Origin: Oceanospirillaceae bacterium
GTDB lineage: Bacteria > Pseudomonadota > Gammaproteobacteria > Pseudomonadales > Balneatricaceae
NCBI GenBank assembly: GCA_013215505.1
Contig: JABSQZ010000001.1
Span: 124,001-188,000 of the forward strand
DNA: 64,000 nt
Direction of reading: 5' to 3'
A program made the position numbers and the translations under genes. Shown piece by piece: positions 13,469 through 22,067 of the stretch; the stretch's first letter is position 1; each line of letters starts with the position of its first letter. Below the pieces are notes generated by a model. It was not told where the DNA came from, searched no databases, and saw nothing but the letters and a program-made list of their open reading frames with translations.

Positions 13469-13578
13469 TCCGCCGGAAAACTTTTAGCTGTCCCCTTACT
13501 CCCCAATAGTATGCCAGGATCTGTTCCAGGCCATTAAAAGCCACTTTGCGGTTGCTATCAACGGCGATTTGCTATATC

Positions 13579-13595
13579 GTATATTTATAATATAC
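13579..13595. promoter_or_regulatory. Candidate operator of the ArsR/BigR-type regulator
   Basis: GTATATT-TAT-AATATAC is a perfect 7-3-7 inverted repeat about 34 bases before the first YeeE/YedE gene. BigR/SqrR-type repressors bind AT-rich dyads in the promoters of sulfide-response genes, and a regulator of that group is encoded downstream (14559-14873), so this is its probable site. Confidence 0.6.
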
Positions 13596-13628
13596 AATAT
13601 ATTCTCCCTTAATAACCACAGGTTTATT

Positions 13629-14054
13629 ATGATTGACTACACACAATTCACCCCGCTTAGCGCATTACTCGGTGGCGCTCTGATCGGCTGTTCAGCTTTT
13701 TTGCTGTTGTATCTGAATGGCCGCATCAGTGGCATTTCTGGCATAACCAGCCGTTTACTGGAAAAACCTAAGCAATCAACCACAGCCTCCTGGCTGTTTG
13801 TCGCAGGCCTTATAGCCGGCTCTGCCCTGGCCAGCAGCGCCTTTTCCCTACCAGTTCCAAAAATCGATAATAGCTGGCCTCTGATCATCGCCTCCGGACT
13901 GCTTGTAGGCTTTGGCAGCGTTTACGGTTCTGGCTGTACTAGCGGACACGGCGTTTGTGGCCTGGCCAGGTTATCTAAACGCTCTCTGGTAAGTGTACCT
14001 ATTTTCATGCTGGCCGCGGTGCTCAGCTACTATTTGTTAAGCCTGGCGTCTTAA
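13629..14054 (+). CDS. YeeE/YedE (DUF395) half-transporter, first subunit
   Basis: A 141-residue membrane protein with about four hydrophobic helices, corresponding to the N-terminal half of YeeE/YedE sulfur-transport proteins. The signature GFGSVYGSGCTSGHGVCGLARLSKRSL carries the conserved cysteines thought to handle thiosulfate or other sulfane sulfur. The open frame extends upstream to 13569, but the ATG at 13629 begins the homologous region. It lies 15 bases before a second half-transporter, the usual split arrangement next to BigR-type regulators. Confidence 0.88.
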   Translation: MIDYTQFTPLSALLGGALIGCSAFLLLYLNGRISGISGITSRLLEKPKQSTTASWLFVAGLIAGSALASSAFSLPVPKIDNSWPLIIASGLLVGFGSVYGSGCTSGHGVCGLARLSKRSLVSVPIFMLAAVLSYYLLSLAS

Positions 14055-14069
14055 ATGGGAGAGTCAATT

Positions 14070-14522
14070 ATGTTAAATCCAACCAACAATCGCTATCTAT
14101 CTATGTTTTCAACATTCACCTGCGGGTTATTATTTGCGGTAGGTTTACAGTTAGCAGCTATGACCCACCCCAGCAAAATTCAAGGCTTCTTAAACGTCAG
14201 CGGTCTTTGGGACCCCAGTTTAGCACTGGTATTATTTGCCGCTACCGGGATATTTAGCCTCGGCTTTTGGAGCATTATCAAAGCCAGGATCAACAATCAG
14301 AAATCGCCAATACTGGCCAGTTCATTCCAAATTCCGACAGCCACTTTAATCGATAAACAGCTAATTATAGGCTCGGTAATCTTTGGTATCGGCTGGGGGC
14401 TGTCAGGTTTTTGCCCGGGACCCGCCATCGCCAATCTCATTTACCTGGATATTAAAATCTTTGCCTTCATAATCGCCATGTTACTGGGGATGGCCATAGC
14501 TAAGCGGCTGAAAAAGCAATAA
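14070..14522 (+). CDS. YeeE/YedE (DUF6691) half-transporter, second subunit
   Basis: A 150-residue membrane protein with four helices, the partner half of the preceding gene. It contains the typical IFGIGWGLSGFCPGPAIANL with the conserved cysteine and ends in AIAKRLKKQ. An ATG at 14055 is also in frame, but GGGAG places the start at 14070. With the first half it should form one sulfur-compound channel in the inner membrane. Confidence 0.88.
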   Translation: MLNPTNNRYLSMFSTFTCGLLFAVGLQLAAMTHPSKIQGFLNVSGLWDPSLALVLFAATGIFSLGFWSIIKARINNQKSPILASSFQIPTATLIDKQLIIGSVIFGIGWGLSGFCPGPAIANLIYLDIKIFAFIIAMLLGMAIAKRLKKQ

Positions 14523-14558
14523 ACTACTGTCCTTTTAACGCAGATTGAACCCAGTATA

Positions 14559-14873
14559 ATGATAGATTCATCTAAACTAGCAGCCAACAGCGCCAAGGCA
14601 GTGACACTGCTTAAGGCGCTGGCCAATAAACAGCGGCTGATGATTCTCTGCGCCCTACAGGGTGGAGAACTGAGTGTCAGCCAGCTTAACGAGTTGATCC
14701 CCATCCCCCAGTCATCACTCTCGCAACAATTGGCCTGGCTGCGAAAAGAGCAGTTTGTACAGACTCGCCGAGAAGCGCAAAGTATTTTCTATGCGCTGGA
14801 CAGTTGGGAAGTGCAACAATTGATCAATACTCTGCATCAGATTTACTGTAGCGATGATCAGCTGCAAAAATAA
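14559..14873 (+). CDS. ArsR-family regulator of the BigR/SqrR sulfide-sensing type
   Basis: A 104-residue winged-helix repressor. The recognition region is SVSQLNELIPIPQSSLSQQLAWLRKEQFVQTRREAQSIFYAL, very like BigR and YgaV. Two cysteines, C31 (LMILC) and C97 (HQIYC), are 66 residues apart, which is the spacing of the sensing pair in BigR (42/108) and SqrR (41/107). These form a disulfide or polysulfide bridge on exposure to sulfane sulfur and release DNA. It closes the operon of the two YeeE/YedE halves and probably represses it through the palindrome at 13579. Confidence 0.88.
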   Translation: MIDSSKLAANSAKAVTLLKALANKQRLMILCALQGGELSVSQLNELIPIPQSSLSQQLAWLRKEQFVQTRREAQSIFYALDSWEVQQLINTLHQIYCSDDQLQK

Positions 14874-15060
14874 ATCCGATACGTTTAATACCCCACCACA
14901 ATATTGCGGTTCACTGCCTACGATGCAGACCTAAAACAGGCGGTTAAGCGCCCTGATCTCTCGCTCAAATTCAACTGACATTTTTTCTTAAAGTTGCATC
15001 AATGCGCATGTACCCGCCGGCTAATAACCTCTTCTTAACTGCACCAGCAATTATTCACAA

Positions 15061-15078
15061 ATGTTCGTTTGAACAATA
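15061..15078. promoter_or_regulatory. GlpR-like dyad 1 upstream of ugpB
   Basis: ATGTTCGTTTGAACAAT is an imperfect dyad (TGTTC-N4-GAACA) resembling GlpR operators. A related sequence occurs 62 bases downstream, close to six helical turns. The operon encodes a DeoR/GlpR-family regulator, which is the likely ligand. Confidence 0.55.
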
Positions 15079-15122
15079 TTAAGCGTGTTTTTGCTCATAA
15101 TTGATAGATAATTAGTTTTACA

Positions 15123-15140
15123 ATATTCGTTCGATCATAT
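15123..15140. promoter_or_regulatory. GlpR-like dyad 2 upstream of ugpB
   Basis: ATATTCGTTCGATCATAT aligns with dyad 1 through AT(G/A)TTCGTT(T/C)GA(A/T)CA with the same spacing. The pair suggests cooperative binding of one repressor across the ugp promoter region. Confidence 0.55.
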
Positions 15141-15187
15141 TGCATTATAATCTTATCTTGAGTTACTATCGGATGGGGTCACAAAAA

Positions 15188-15215
15188 TGACTTATAAATG
15201 TCATCCTAATGTCAT
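15188..15215 (+). promoter_or_regulatory. Tandem PhoB (Pho) boxes upstream of ugpB
   Basis: TGACTT at 15188, TGTCAT at 15199 and TGTCAT at 15210 recur with an exact 11-base period, the arrangement of direct-repeat half-sites bound by PhoB. A further TGTCAC lies at 15244. They lie about 180 bases before ugpB. In E. coli the ugp operon is part of the Pho regulon, so phosphate starvation is the likely inducer here. Confidence 0.7.
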
Positions 15216-15392
15216 CAATAGTTTCTATTCTTCAGCCAGTTATGTCACTGCTAAGCCATTTAGTACTGTGTTAATCAGCTGAAAATTAATTTTATTAATC
15301 GACTTCACAATTAGGCCTGCTGATACCAAAGATTTAGCTTGATGATAACCACAAAAATAATTGCTAATGATAGCTATTCAAGGAGATTTCCA

Positions 15393-16697
15393 ATGCTTAA
15401 CAAATCTATTATTGCGGCCTCAATCACGGCAGCACTACTCTCTGGGGCAGCGAATGCCGCAGTTGAAGTTAATTGGTGGCATGCAATGGGCGGCACCAAC
15501 ACTGAAAGAGTCAACAAAATTGCCGCTGACTTCAATGCACTGCAATCTGATTTTACAATCAATGCCGTATACAAAGGCAATTATACTGAGACTATGACTG
15601 CAGCGATCGCCGCTTTCAGAGCCAAAAAGCAGCCGCATATAGTGCAAGTATTTGAAGTCGGCACTGCGACTATGATGGCAGCTAAAGGTGCTGTTTATCC
15701 AGTTGAACAGGTGATGAACGATTCAGGTGTGACACTGAACAAATCTGACTACTTGCCTGCGGTTATTTCCTACTACCAGACACCAGAGGGCGAGTTACTG
15801 TCAATGCCTTTTAACAGTTCGACTCCGGTACTTTGGTACAACCAGGACGCTCTTGCCAAAGCCGGTGTTACAGATGCCCCTAAAACCTGGGATGAAGTTT
15901 CCAGCGTTTCTAAAAAGTTGGTCGATAGCGGCATGAAATGTGGTATCGCTGTTGGCTGGCAGTCATGGGGACTGATCGAAAACTACAGTGCCTGGAACAA
16001 TATTGAGCTTGGCACTAAGCAAAATGGTTATGCAGGTCTGGACACTGAACTAACTTTTAACAACAAGCACGTCACTGCTAATCTACAGCGCCTGGCGGAT
16101 ATGCAAAAAGATGGCAGCTTCACTTACGGAGGCCGTCGCGGTGAAAGTTTAGCGATGTTCACCAACGGTGATTGTGGTATGTGGATTAACTCATCCGCCT
16201 ATTATGGTTCTATCAAAGGTCAGGCTAAATTTAAGTTCGCACAGGCAATGATGCCTTACGATTCAACTGTTGCAAGCGGACCTCAGAATTCGATCATTGG
16301 CGGTGCTACGCTATGGACATTACGTGGCCATGACAAGGAAGACTACAAAGGTGTAGCAGAGTTTATGAAGTACTTATCCTCTGCCGAAGTACAAGCTTGG
16401 TGGCACCAGCAGACTGGCTATGTACCTATCACCACTTCTGCCTACAAACTGAGTCAAGAGCAAGGTTTCTACCAGGAAAACCCAGGCACCGACACTGCTA
16501 TCAAGCAGTTGAGCCTGAACACTCCAACCGCGAACTCTCGCGGTATACGCTTTGGTAACTTCGTGCAAATTCGCGACATTATCAACGCCGAGATGGAAAT
16601 GATCTGGAATGGCTCTAAAAGCGCGGAAACTGCGATGAACGATGCGGTATCTCAAGGTAACAAACTATTACGTAAGTTTGAAAAAGCCAATAAGTAA
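15393..16697 (+). CDS. ugpB: sn-Glycerol-3-phosphate-binding periplasmic protein UgpB
   Basis: A 434-residue solute-binding protein (SBP_bac_1) that delivers glycerol-3-phosphate or glycerophosphodiesters to UgpAEC. The signal peptide is MLNKSIIAASITAALLSGAANA. The mature start VEVNWWHAMGG, the KGNYTETMTAAIAAFRAKKQPHIVQVFEVGTATMMAAKGA segment and the WNNIELGTKQNGYAGLDTEL region are characteristic of UgpB. The frame is open from 15339, but AAGGAGA places the start at 15393. It heads the operon, with Pho boxes and GlpR-like dyads upstream. The 250 bases to ugpA include an inverted repeat (16716-16723 with 16773-16780) that may reduce downstream expression. Confidence 0.95.
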   Translation: MLNKSIIAASITAALLSGAANAAVEVNWWHAMGGTNTERVNKIAADFNALQSDFTINAVYKGNYTETMTAAIAAFRAKKQPHIVQVFEVGTATMMAAKGAVYPVEQVMNDSGVTLNKSDYLPAVISYYQTPEGELLSMPFNSSTPVLWYNQDALAKAGVTDAPKTWDEVSSVSKKLVDSGMKCGIAVGWQSWGLIENYSAWNNIELGTKQNGYAGLDTELTFNNKHVTANLQRLADMQKDGSFTYGGRRGESLAMFTNGDCGMWINSSAYYGSIKGQAKFKFAQAMMPYDSTVASGPQNSIIGGATLWTLRGHDKEDYKGVAEFMKYLSSAEVQAWWHQQTGYVPITTSAYKLSQEQGFYQENPGTDTAIKQLSLNTPTANSRGIRFGNFVQIRDIINAEMEMIWNGSKSAETAMNDAVSQGNKLLRKFEKANK

Positions 16698-16947: not shown

Positions 16948-17829
16948 ATGCAAAAACGCGTCCACTACAACAGCTCGTATTTGCCTTATTTATTGGTTGC
17001 GCCGCAAATAATTATTACCTTAGTATTTTTTATTTGGCCCGCCATGCAGGCACTTTATCAATCCTTTTTACTCGAAGATGCCTTTGGCCTGTCCAGTGAG
17101 TTTGTCTGGTTTGATAACTTTGTAGAACTTTATGACAATCCGAGGTATTTAGACTCTTTTGTCAGAACGGCCTTTTTCTCTTTCGCAGTGGCAGGCCTGT
17201 CGATGGGAGTGGCACTGTTTTTTGCAGCTCTGGCTGATCGAGTGGTTAAAGGTGCTCAGGGCTATAGAACACTATTGATCATCCCCTATGCGGTGGCACC
17301 GGTACTGGCCGGTACCCTGTGGTTATTTTTGTTTAATCCAACCTTGGGAATTATGACCTATTTCCTGGATATGGTGGGTATTAACTGGAACCATAAACTC
17401 GATAGTTCTCAGGCGATGGGGCTAGTGATACTGGCAGCTGCCTGGAAACAAATTAGCTATAACTTCCTATTTTTTGTCGCCGCCATGCACTCTATTCCGA
17501 AATCTTTAATTGAGGCTGCGGCCATCGACGGGGCCGGGCCCGCACACCGATTCCGTACTATTATATTCCCGTTAATTTCACCGACCACATTTTTCCTGTT
17601 AGTGGTCAATATCATTTACGCTTTTTTTGATACCTTCGGCATCATCCACGCCGTGACAGCGGGCGGCCCGGGCAACTCCACTGAAATATTAGTGTACAAA
17701 GTATTCAATGATGGTTTTGTCGGGCTCGACTTAGGCGGCTCAGCAGCTCAGTCAGTGATTCTGATGTTTATCGTTATCGGTTTAACGGTTGTCCAGTTTA
17801 AATACATAGAACGCAAGGTGGAATACTAA
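16948..17829 (+). CDS. ugpA: Glycerol-3-phosphate ABC transporter permease UgpA
   Basis: A 293-residue permease with six transmembrane helices ([22 protein letters not shown] first). The cytoplasmic EAA loop that contacts the ATPase is [25 protein letters not shown]. The [23 protein letters not shown] segment is typical of UgpA. It overlaps ugpE by one base, so the two are translationally coupled. Confidence 0.95.
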
Positions 17830-18668
17830 TGGTAGAGAATAGACCTATGACGACTTTCATCAGTCACAGCGTACTGATTATCGGCGTCGCATTAATAGTA
17901 TTCCCCATTTGGATCATGCTGGTTGCCTCCTCTCACGATGCATTGCGACTGACTGAAGTACCGCTGCCCTTACTGCCGGGCGATCAGTTTTGGGAAAACA
18001 TCAAACTGCTGTTTAGCAGCAAGACTTTCGGCGCGCCGATTCACTTGTCGCTGCTTAACAGTTTAGTCATGGCGATGATGATCAGCCTGGGAAAAATATC
18101 TATCTCAGTGATATCCGCATTCGCTATCGTCTACTTTAAATTTCGTTTTCGGATGTTCTTTTTCTGGATGATATTTGTCACTTTGATGTTACCGGTTGAA
18201 GTGCGGATACTGCCCACTTATGAAGTAGTCGCCAGTCTGGGTATGTTAGATTCCTATCTGGGACTCAGTGTACCGCTGATCGCCTCAGCCACTGCCACAT
18301 TCATGTTCCGCCAGACCTTTCTGACTATTCCCGATGAGTTAATGGAAGCCTCAAGAATTGACGGTGCCAGCCCAATGCGCTTCTTTTTTGATGTGGTCAT
18401 CCCCATGTCCAGAACTAACATAGCGGCCCTGTTTGTGATTTTATTTATCTATGGCTGGAACCAGTACCTGTGGCCGCTGTTGATCACTACAGACCCGGAC
18501 ATGTACACCGTCGTGATGAGCATCAAGCAGATGCTGGAATCTGGCGAGAGCGAACCCATGTGGCACATGATCATGCTCACAGCGCTGTTCGCTATGTTGC
18601 CACCGGTGCTAGTGGTTATATTTATGCAAAAAATATTTGTCAAAGGCCTGACCGATTCGGAGAAGTAA
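17829..18668 (+). CDS. ugpE: Glycerol-3-phosphate ABC transporter permease UgpE
   Basis: A 279-residue permease with six helices. The EAA motif reads MEASRIDGASPMRFFFDVVIPMSRTN, and NQYLWPLLITTDPDMYTVVMSIKQML matches UgpE closely. Its start overlaps the stop of ugpA and its stop is one base before ugpC. Confidence 0.95.
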   Translation: MVENRPMTTFISHSVLIIGVALIVFPIWIMLVASSHDALRLTEVPLPLLPGDQFWENIKLLFSSKTFGAPIHLSLLNSLVMAMMISLGKISISVISAFAIVYFKFRFRMFFFWMIFVTLMLPVEVRILPTYEVVASLGMLDSYLGLSVPLIASATATFMFRQTFLTIPDELMEASRIDGASPMRFFFDVVIPMSRTNIAALFVILFIYGWNQYLWPLLITTDPDMYTVVMSIKQMLESGESEPMWHMIMLTALFAMLPPVLVVIFMQKIFVKGLTDSEK

Positions 18669-18669
18669 A

Positions 18670-19728
<1,059 letters not shown>

Positions 19729-19743
19729 GCGACGGCAATTAAC

Positions 19744-20511
19744 ATGATAGTAACACCTATAACGGCCCACCGCGGCCTCTCCAGCTTAGCGCCAGAAAAT
19801 ACTTTGTCAGCCTTGCGCTTGGCCGCCGAGCACGGCGTGCAATGGGTGGAAATTGACGCGATTGCCTGTGGCGATGGCACTATCGTCATGTGGCACGACA
19901 ACAGTGTCGATCGCTGCTCCGATGGCGTCGGCGCAATGTCGCAATACAATGCCCAGAGCATTCAACAACTCGACTGTGGCTCATGGTTTTCCGAGGCGTA
20001 CCGCGGTGAAAAAATGGCCACTATTGAAGAGGCGATTCTGCTGATTGAAGAGCTTGGTTTAGGCTTAAACTTGGAATTTAAGCTCTATGAAAATAGCGTA
20101 AAAACAGTGGTTGCACCGGTATTAGCACTGTTGAATAAGCACTGGAGCAATTTTGACAAACTGATTATTTCCAGCTTTGATCAAGCGGCTCTGGAATATT
20201 GCCACGACCAGCAGCCTAGCTTGCAGCTGGCAAAGCTGTATGAAAAGATCCCCGGGAACTGGTTGCAACAGATGCAGGCGATCAATGCCGTTACTTGCCA
20301 CTGCGATTACCAACATCTGCAACAATCACAAGTACAAGCATTGCACCGCGCAGGTTATGAAGTCTACTGCTACACCCCCAACCAAAGCGTGGATGTTGAA
20401 TCGCATTGGAGCTGGGGTATCGAAGGCATTATCACTGACTATCCACAGAAGTTCCAAGATCATTTAAGTACCCCTGTGGACAGCGAGCCCCATGCCGGAA
20501 AGGGCCTGTGA
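19744..20511 (+). CDS. ugpQ: Glycerophosphodiester phosphodiesterase UgpQ
   Basis: A 255-residue cytosolic TIM-barrel enzyme that hydrolyses glycerophosphodiesters to glycerol-3-phosphate and an alcohol. The catalytic motif HRGLSSLAPENTLSAL is at the start, with EIDAIACGDGTIVMWHDNSVDR giving the second histidine and metal ligands and LNLEFKLYE the further acidic residue. It follows ugpC directly, as in E. coli, so phospholipid head-group debris is imported and split. Confidence 0.94.
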   Translation: MIVTPITAHRGLSSLAPENTLSALRLAAEHGVQWVEIDAIACGDGTIVMWHDNSVDRCSDGVGAMSQYNAQSIQQLDCGSWFSEAYRGEKMATIEEAILLIEELGLGLNLEFKLYENSVKTVVAPVLALLNKHWSNFDKLIISSFDQAALEYCHDQQPSLQLAKLYEKIPGNWLQQMQAINAVTCHCDYQHLQQSQVQALHRAGYEVYCYTPNQSVDVESHWSWGIEGIITDYPQKFQDHLSTPVDSEPHAGKGL

Positions 20512-21281
20512 AACTCAATAGCAGACAACAGCAAATACTACAGCTAATCAGCGCTGAGCAATTTGTCAGCGTTGAATTTTTAACCCAACATTTCCAGGTA
20601 GCGGCGCAGACGGTGCGCCGGGATATTACCCAGCTCTGTGATCTGGGCCTGGCCAGGCGCCATCACGGCGGTGCTGGACAACTGCCGAGTGCGGAAAACT
20701 TATCTTTTGGCAATCGGCGGATCATTAACGCTAACGCTAAACAGTTAATCGCCCTGCGGATCGCCGCACAGATCCCCGATAACGCATCCCTCGCACTGGG
20801 CATAGGCACTACCATTGAGGCTGTGGCCAAGGCCCTGCTCAACAAAAAAGGCCTGAGGATCATCACCAACAATTTAAACGTCGCCAGCATCTTCTTTCAG
20901 ACCAGTGATGCTCAAGTACTGGTCAGTGGCGGCAAACTGCGTCCTCTGGATCAAGATTTAGTCGGTGATCAAGTGGTCAGTTTTTATAATAGTTACTACA
21001 CCGATTTTGCCATTATCAGTGTCGGCGCTTTAGACCAGCAGCGTGGCTTGATGGATTTTGACATGGACAATGTCGCTATTACTCAAAGCATATTAAAAAA
21101 CTGTAGAAAAAACATTCTGGCGGCTGATGACAGTAAATGGAACAAGAAAGCCTTTGCCAGTGTTGCCACATTTACCAGCATAGATGCATTCTATACCAAC
21201 CAACTACCTGCTCCCGATATCTGTCAGAGCCTTGAAAGTAAAAAAGTCCAGATCATCGTCTGTGACCAGGAAAAACACTAA
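20508..21281 (+). CDS. DeoR-family regulator, GlpR-like
   Basis: A 257-residue repressor. The helix-turn-helix is residues 5-57 (RQQQILQLISAEQFVSVEFLTQHFQVAAQTVRRDITQL then CDLGLARRHHGGA) and a DeoR sensor domain follows with ALGIGTTIEAVAKALL and TNNLNVASIF, similar to GlpR. The start is a GTG overlapping the ugpQ stop. It most likely senses glycerol-3-phosphate or a related sugar phosphate and binds the two dyads before ugpB; both points are inference from family and context. Confidence 0.87.
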   Translation: MKLNSRQQQILQLISAEQFVSVEFLTQHFQVAAQTVRRDITQLCDLGLARRHHGGAGQLPSAENLSFGNRRIINANAKQLIALRIAAQIPDNASLALGIGTTIEAVAKALLNKKGLRIITNNLNVASIFFQTSDAQVLVSGGKLRPLDQDLVGDQVVSFYNSYYTDFAIISVGALDQQRGLMDFDMDNVAITQSILKNCRKNILAADDSKWNKKAFASVATFTSIDAFYTNQLPAPDICQSLESKKVQIIVCDQEKH

Positions 21282-22067
21282 ATGTCCCAACCCACTGCCC
21301 TACCAAAAAAAATAGATCAGATAAAATTTGTACTCAGCGATGTCGATGACACTCTGACCAGTAACGGCCAGTTGCGTCCAGAGACTTATCAGGCAATGCA
21401 CCGCCTGGTCGCTGCCGGAATCATCTTCATTCCGATCACTGGCGGCTGTGCTGGCTGGTGCGACTCATTTTCCAGGCTCTGGCCCGCCGCTGCGGTCATC
21501 GGTGAAAATGGTGGTTTCTATTTAAAGCGCCAGGAAAACAATCACATTGACTACCATTTTTGGCAGAGTGAGGCCGAGCGTCAGCGCAACAGCCAAAAAC
21601 TACTGCAGATAGCCGAAGAGGCCATTGCTCAGGTCCCTGAAGTACGCCTGGCAAAAGATCAGTGTTATCGACTAGTGGATGTCGCTATAGATTACAATCA
21701 GGATATATCTGGCATTGACAAGCAACAATTGGCGAAGATATTGGCGGTTTTTCACCGCCACGGCGTCAATGCCAAGGCCAGCTCTATTCACGTCAATGCC
21801 TGGATTGGCGATTACAATAAAAAAGCCATGGCCTGCCGGCTATTGGCCGATGAGTTCCAGTTATCAGCAGAACAAATGCAGCAGCAAGTATTGTTTATCG
21901 GCGATTCGTTAAACGATGAGACTATGTTTGAGTTTTTCCCCAACAGTGTCGGTGTTGCCAACATTGAGCAGCAGCTAACGCAGCTGCAGGCAAAACCTAA
22001 ATGGATAACGCAGGCGAGCTATGGCCAGGGCTTTGAACAGATGGTAGATGCGGTACTGAGAGCATAA
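21282..22067 (+). CDS. HAD-IIB sugar or glycerol phosphatase-like hydrolase
   Basis: A 261-residue cytosolic HAD-superfamily hydrolase with the catalytic DVDDTLTSNG (nucleophile and acid Asp), motif II Thr in IFIPITGG, the IIB cap domain in the middle (residues about 90-190), and motif IV GDSLNDETMFEF. The Cof/mannosyl-3-phosphoglycerate phosphatase group is closest by eye. It is the last gene of the ugp operon, directly after the regulator. A role in dephosphorylating imported glycerol-3-phosphate or a sugar phosphate is possible but not shown by the sequence. Confidence 0.8.
   Translation: MSQPTALPKKIDQIKFVLSDVDDTLTSNGQLRPETYQAMHRLVAAGIIFIPITGGCAGWCDSFSRLWPAAAVIGENGGFYLKRQENNHIDYHFWQSEAERQRNSQKLLQIAEEAIAQVPEVRLAKDQCYRLVDVAIDYNQDISGIDKQQLAKILAVFHRHGVNAKASSIHVNAWIGDYNKKAMACRLLADEFQLSAEQMQQQVLFIGDSLNDETMFEFFPNSVGVANIEQQLTQLQAKPKWITQASYGQGFEQMVDAVLRA

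Follow-up and report, generated by a model that had tools for sequence, protein, structure and literature searches.

The ugp operon of an Oceanospirillaceae bacterium is probably transcribed from two tandem promoters (a probability of about 0.7): the upstream one, P1, would be controlled by the operon's own DeoR-family protein through two inverted repeats (dyads), and the downstream one, P2, by PhoB. Such dual control had been proposed in an initial annotation of the DNA and appears to be the best-supported reading, as the presence of the dyads tracks that of the DeoR gene and the geometry of the promoter region is conserved. The operon lies in the 64-kb stretch of DNA analysed here (the window), around which the genome comprises 5.73 Mb. 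Its genes follow one another on the + strand:

15393-16697, + strand: ugpB, G3P-binding protein (NF008211, 528.9 against a cut-off of 411)
16948-17829, + strand: ugpA, permease (NF007852, above cut-off)
17829-18668, + strand: ugpE, permease (NF008210, above cut-off)
18670-19728, + strand: ugpC, ATPase (NF008653, above cut-off)
19744-20511, + strand: UgpQ-like glycerophosphodiester phosphodiesterase (PF03009; NF006989 below cut-off)
20508-21281, + strand: DeoR-family regulator (PF08220 and PF00455), with a GTG start overlapping the ugpQ stop
21282-22067, + strand: HAD-IIB phosphatase, the partner gene of DeoR (TIGR01484, above cut-off)

The regulator contains the helix–turn–helix domain (PF08220) and the DeoRC sensor domain (PF00455) of the DeoR family, both above cut-off; its nearest named match comes from an uncultured Oceanospirillaceae bacterium. 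The name UgpR, coined in this analysis, is used here for the DeoR protein of the ugp operon. The HAD gene is located near the DeoR gene in relatives too. No terminator-like hairpin was found between ugpB and ugpA, and ugpBAEC-ugpQ-deoR-HAD would form one operon with transcripts of operon length. Just upstream of the ugp region, positions 13569-14873 contain genes for two YeeE/YedE-like membrane proteins (assigned by eye) and an ArsR-type regulator resembling BigR (94.7 bits, under the cut-off of 155).

The region preceding ugpB contains the following elements:

15062-15075, + strand: dyad 1, TGTTCGTTTGAACA, with the core TTCGTTTGAA at 15064-15073; candidate operator for the operon's DeoR
15124-15137, + strand: dyad 2, TATTCGTTCGATCA, with the core at 15126-15135 bearing one mismatch; immediately precedes the P1 -35
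15140-15145, + strand: proposed P1 -35, TTGCAT, a poor consensus match; TTGC is invariant in 7/7 promoters
15164-15169, + strand: proposed P1 -10, TACTAT, 18 bp from the -35 in 7/7 promoters
15177-15192, + strand: weak PHO half-sites GGTCA (15177) and TGACT (15188), at 11-bp steps from the pair that follows
15199-15214, + strand: PHO box TGTCATCCTAATGTCA, an exact TGTCA pair with half-sites at 15199 and 15210
15226-15231, + strand: proposed PhoB-dependent P2 -10, TATTCT; the last TGTCA starts 16 nt before it

The two related dyads, 62 bp apart, are present where the initial annotation had placed them, and the elements and their geometry emerge from a comparison of seven promoters (the window, five genus mates and G034). 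Dyad 2 is an aligned block with invariant columns in all seven. The core of dyad 1 is exact in five (G000, G001, G004, G005 and G006) and carries one mismatch in G002; it was not seen at its place in G034. When cores with one mismatch are included, the two dyads of six genus genomes are 62, 62, 61, 61, 60 and 72 bp apart. The blocks conserved in the seven promoters, amid diverged flanks, comprise dyad 2 with CATATTGC or CACATTGC after it, TAGTAT/TACTAT always at 18 bp downstream of the TTGC hexamer, and AAnTGTCA; the layout is common to the six relatives in differing degree. A sigma-70 consensus scan of 14870-15400 gave no promoters (mean of 2.4 in shuffled sequences) and, since it missed P1 and the -35 is poor, the case for P1 is made by conservation. 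TTGCAT/TACTAT probably represents P1, and the PHO box with TATTCT probably represents P2.

Counts of the dyad were made at two scales. With up to one mismatch, TGTTCGNNYGAWCA has four matches in the window against a shuffle mean of 0.85, and the two ugp sites account for three of them, as one is counted on both strands. Genome-wide, TTCRTTYGAWCA occurs at six places, two of them at ugp, and the reversed control pattern at four, so that a single site is not significant. Three of the four matches away from ugp are inside ORFs; the fourth, TTCATTCGAACA at C22:82279-82290 (L207, genome G000), is found some 150 bp ahead of an ORF of 164 aa, acetyltransferase-like by eye, and may be a second target of the DeoR protein. 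Phasing of the dyad pairs on the helix, taken over all clades, was discarded as proof, the value of R being moderate (0.54-0.67) for 17 pairs, many of them closely related.

The PHO pair with up to one mismatch has eight matches in the window against 4.2 in shuffles, seven of 100 shuffles reaching eight. The genome-wide count of TGTCA-N6-TGTCA was rejected as proof because the reversed control pattern is at least as frequent (18 against 12). Both features are placed above chance because they are kept in relatives with diverged flanks and because a -10 lies 16 nt after the last half-site. Counts alone leave chance open; conservation confirms the dyads and PHO sites as real.

The three PhoB half-sites at an exact 11-bp spacing that had been reported earlier were recovered as TGACT at 15188, a weak site matching three of five bases, and TGTCA at 15199 and 15210; GGTCA at 15177 is a possible fourth. 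In six of the seven promoters, a TA-starting -10 hexamer (TATTCT, TACTCT, TAACCT or TACCCT) is located 16 nt after the last TGTCA, and G034 has CGCTCT at this position. A PstS-like gene of the same genome (PF12849 match; the name PstS was given by eye) has TGTCA-N6-TGTCA and then TAAAGT at the same 16 nt. The ugp region shows the 11-bp TGTCA spacing and the fixed-distance -10 of a Pho promoter, and PhoB is encoded in the genome (338.8 bits against a curated cut-off of 296.2). Triple TGTCA arrays with 11-bp spacing outside long ORFs were observed in G000 at C5:87702-87728 (L196/L197) and C12:233110-233136 (L198/L199); one precedes an EAL-type-like ORF and the other an HTH-regulator-like ORF (by eye).

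The relation between the dyads and the DeoR gene was examined in ugp operons drawn from a search of 293 genomes of the order (29 with ugpB at E 1e-120), a search of 57 genomes of relatives (13 with ugpB at E 1e-40) and a contig scan (ugpB in 5 of 80 loci). After removal of repeats and of G003, whose contig ends 82 bp upstream of ugpB, the set comprised 26 promoters with a DeoR gene and 15 without; L077 is on the same contig as G001 and was counted once, and G006, with ugpB and deoR on two contigs, was scored as DeoR-bearing. Dyad density over whole 20-kb loci was set aside as evidence (0.115 per kb for HAD-linked loci against 0.070 for the others) and, because it gave little contrast, promoter position alone was used. 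The motif TTCRNNYGAA, partly defined on this same set, is present within 400 bp upstream of ugpB in 25/26 loci with the DeoR gene against 3/15 without it (Fisher p = 7e-7, which is too small since the loci are related, many being Marinomonas-type). The 26 promoters contain 40 such sites, where a background of 0.018 per 400 bp, mostly from coding sequence, predicts about 0.5; with the middle changed to N0, N1, N3, N4 or N6, and with three permuted patterns, the count is 0-2 of 26. A GlpR dyad with a 4-bp middle was rejected at ugp, the N4 pattern being at background (2/26). The 12-bp form TTTCRNNYGAAA, at 9/10 or better, is found in 21/26 promoters with DeoR against 2/15 without, and the association of dyad and DeoR is present in four groups (f1, f6, f27 and Vreelandella).

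It is very improbable that PhoB alone matters and that the dyads are relics or bind something unrelated. The PHO sites and P2 are intact, and binding of DeoR to the dyads is a prediction; however, the dyads are kept amid diverged flanks at a near-fixed spacing, they follow the DeoR gene in the proportions just given, and they occur in all but one of the 26 DeoR-bearing promoters, 21 of which lack an exact PHO pair.

Two of the three dyad-bearing exceptions have a DeoR–HAD pair elsewhere, with one dyad (G011) and two dyads (G040) upstream. In G011 the pair is found on another contig and the dyad precedes the HAD gene; the DeoR protein of this pair is placed with UgpR in the tree, where it forms a long branch, and in pairwise comparison it is equally close to GlpR and UgpR. 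G040 has kept HAD in the ugp operon; its second HAD–DeoR pair, with a DeoR on the UgpR side of the tree, follows the genes of a phosphonate-type transporter, upstream of which are two TGTTCAATCGAACA dyads. G004 retains both dyads. Its HAD gene lies close to the end of a different contig, and its assembly, which is 98% complete, yielded a GlpR-type gene but no operon-type DeoR; the likely reason is that the gene was lost recently or falls in a gap of the assembly. G034 possesses the DeoR gene, a dyad only with one mismatch and degenerate PHO sites. G082 runs against the trend: it lacks a dyad at ugp despite an adjacent DeoR–HAD pair elsewhere, the DeoR of which clusters with the phosphonate-transporter type. 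In G029, likewise without a dyad at ugp, HAD is encoded elsewhere. No HAD relative at E 1e-15 was found in the genomes of the other ten DeoR-less promoters.

The dyads had been described in the initial annotation as GlpR-like, which is correct for the half-site and incorrect for the protein. Although the GlpR-like model NF008154 is the best NCBIfam model for the operon DeoR, the score of 212.6 bits is below the cut-off of 331, and a separate GlpR is encoded beside glpK in the same genome. Phylogeny also sets the two proteins apart. In a 58-row tree, from which L008 and L010 had been removed as duplicates of G019 and G010, a branch with support of 100/100 divides all 27 operon DeoR proteins from the 15 glpK-linked GlpR proteins; 16 rows are in neither group, the root is a midpoint, and the long branches that meet at the split advise caution. 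A further tree, with 23 rows and likewise midpoint-rooted, agrees on this separation. The operators differ as well. The glpD promoters of the genus have a direct repeat TTCG-N6-TTCG in 7/7 cases and the inverted dyad in none, whereas in the seven ugp promoters the direct repeat is missing and an exact inverted dyad is present in six. The direct repeat (L225-L231), located 113-206 bp before the start of the glpD match in all seven genus genomes, is likely to be a GlpR operator of direct-repeat geometry. Neither exact pattern, direct or inverted, was found in the glpK-glpR gap of five genus genomes. Score, trees and operator geometry together led us to reject the identification of the operon DeoR as GlpR.

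A weaker candidate for the ugp dyads is the glpK-linked GlpR paralogue, which, if it read them, would tie ugp to the general glycerol regulon. The helix–turn–helix stretches of the two proteins are similar (QTVRRD and QTIRRD, which we take to be the recognition helix), TGTTCG is also present at glpD, and G004 keeps its dyads with only a GlpR-type gene found. Inverted N2 dyads lie behind DeoR genes with no HAD neighbour in 35/67 loci, mostly with GlpR-type genes of Pseudomonas and Paraburkholderia (5 of 72 loci were too short and were left out); L097 has one dyad, and in L086 an inverted N2 dyad precedes a glycerol-phosphate-oxidase-like protein. GlpR-like proteins might in principle bind N2 dyads and, because such dyads also lie behind GlpR-type genes, dyad geometry is no proof of UgpR over GlpR. 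Against the paralogue stand the direct repeats at glpD, the tracking of the dyads with the operon DeoR and the separation in the trees, which make its role at ugp improbable.

In the preferred reading, P1 (-35 at 15140, -10 at 15164) would be controlled by the operon's own DeoR protein bound to two inverted repeats with the core TTCRNNYGAA. These are some six helical turns apart (about -107 and -45 relative to the predicted P1 start), and the nearer one adjoins the -35; a distance of 60-62 bp (72 bp in one genome) would suit cooperative or looped binding. The protein is most likely a repressor of P1, released by an organophosphate, most simply sn-glycerol-3-phosphate; the binding, the choice of repression over activation and the effector are inferred.

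An activating role of the DeoR protein at P1 is rather unlikely, though several features would suit it. Dyad 2, whose centre is at about -45 relative to the predicted P1 start, leaves the -35 and -10 uncovered; the -35 is poor, as expected for an activator-dependent promoter; and one of the 11 NCBIfam models matched by the protein is named an activator (L-fucose operon activator, NF007720). Four of the 11, however, are named repressors, and in 7 of 14 aligned Marinomonas-group rows dyad 2 lies between the -35 and -10 as read (an eighth has a weaker -10), which, on this placement, is a typical repressor position.

Under phosphate starvation, PhoB would occupy the 11-bp-phased half-sites, which begin at the P1 start and extend towards the P2 -10 at 15226, and would switch P2 on whatever the state of P1. 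Lying across the beginning of the P1 transcript, it may also block elongation from P1.

The DeoR layer looks older than the strong PHO layer, which would be specific to this genus, because the exact PHO pair is found by a strict pattern in only 5 of the 26 DeoR-operon promoters, all five in this genus. This order is tentative, since the strict pattern is blind to the E. coli ugp PHO sites (a looser pattern, run on the seven promoters and E. coli, detects them) and since the Marinomonas-type promoters have a possible degenerate site: in L157, L158, L161-L163, L165, L166 and L117, a ATCATNAAA-NTGNAA block is kept behind dyad 2 upstream of ugpB, with a TATAGT-like hexamer about 16 nt later, and is possibly a degenerate PHO box.

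The DeoR sensor, the HAD phosphatase and the 2-bp-spaced dyad may constitute a portable cassette placed on different organic-phosphorus ABC transporters, an idea that we regard as speculative and somewhat doubtful. Its hosts would be Ugp here and in Marinomonas and Vreelandella, and a phosphonate-type transporter in G040 and probably Marinobacter. DeoR would sense the imported organophosphate and the phosphatase would set the level of the signal, the PhoB promoter having been added behind in this genus. If so, cassette and PhoB promoter would make an OR gate of substrate and phosphate hunger on ugp, a route for scavenging phospholipid breakdown products. If the dual control proposed here is right, the region would offer a testable operator code, a two-operator promoter and a candidate organophosphate sensor. 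The joint occurrence of this DeoR and a HAD phosphatase next to different organic-phosphorus transporters is a wider lead.

Phosphonate-type operons resemble the ugp operon in having HAD and DeoR adjacent and TGTTCAATYGAACA dyads upstream of the transporter (L210 of G040; L094, L096 and L113 of Marinobacter). Unlike Ugp, the transporter of L210 is of the phosphate/phosphite/phosphonate type (TIGR01098, PhnC, PhnE); for the Marinobacter loci the call is based on an ATPase match and positions. The arrangement of HAD, DeoR and transporter genes in G040 is at L210:5435-10900, and the DeoR proteins of L210, L094 and L096 are on the UgpR side of the tree. UgpR is like E. coli GlpR in its family, in the half-site TGTTCG and in having NF008154 as best model, but the E. 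coli glpD operator has a 4-bp middle (TTCGATAACGAA) instead of the 2 bp of the ugp dyads; neither exact pattern was found in the glpT-glpA and glpF regions of E. coli.

The tandem promoters of E. coli ugpBAECQ were reportedly described by Kasahara et al. in 1991. E. coli ugp is known to be read from one promoter under CRP and, downstream of it, a second that carries multiple PHO boxes (PMC4415409). The likeness consists of two promoters before ugpB, a carbon-side regulator upstream and PHO boxes downstream; here too, the PHO boxes lie between the upstream promoter and ugpB. The upstream controller is cAMP-CRP in E. coli and apparently of DeoR type here. E. coli has no deoR or HAD gene behind ugpQ, and no TTCRNNYGAA at 7/8 or better was found within 400 bp of its ugpB. 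The CRP-like pattern TGTGA-N6-TCACA with up to two mismatches was absent within 420 bp of ugpB in all seven promoters, but it is a weak pattern, with only two 2-mismatch matches in the E. coli control. The earlier remark that E. coli lacks this form of control is right in that no DeoR acts upstream there, but tandem dual control as such is already known, with CRP in the upstream position. No paper on a DeoR regulator of ugp was found by title or abstract start among the open-access papers listed, which is no proof of absence. If the proposed scheme is true, control would be substrate-specific here, as against general carbon control in E. coli, and the operon would represent known parts in a new combination, with a dedicated DeoR-type regulator in the place of CRP at ugp.
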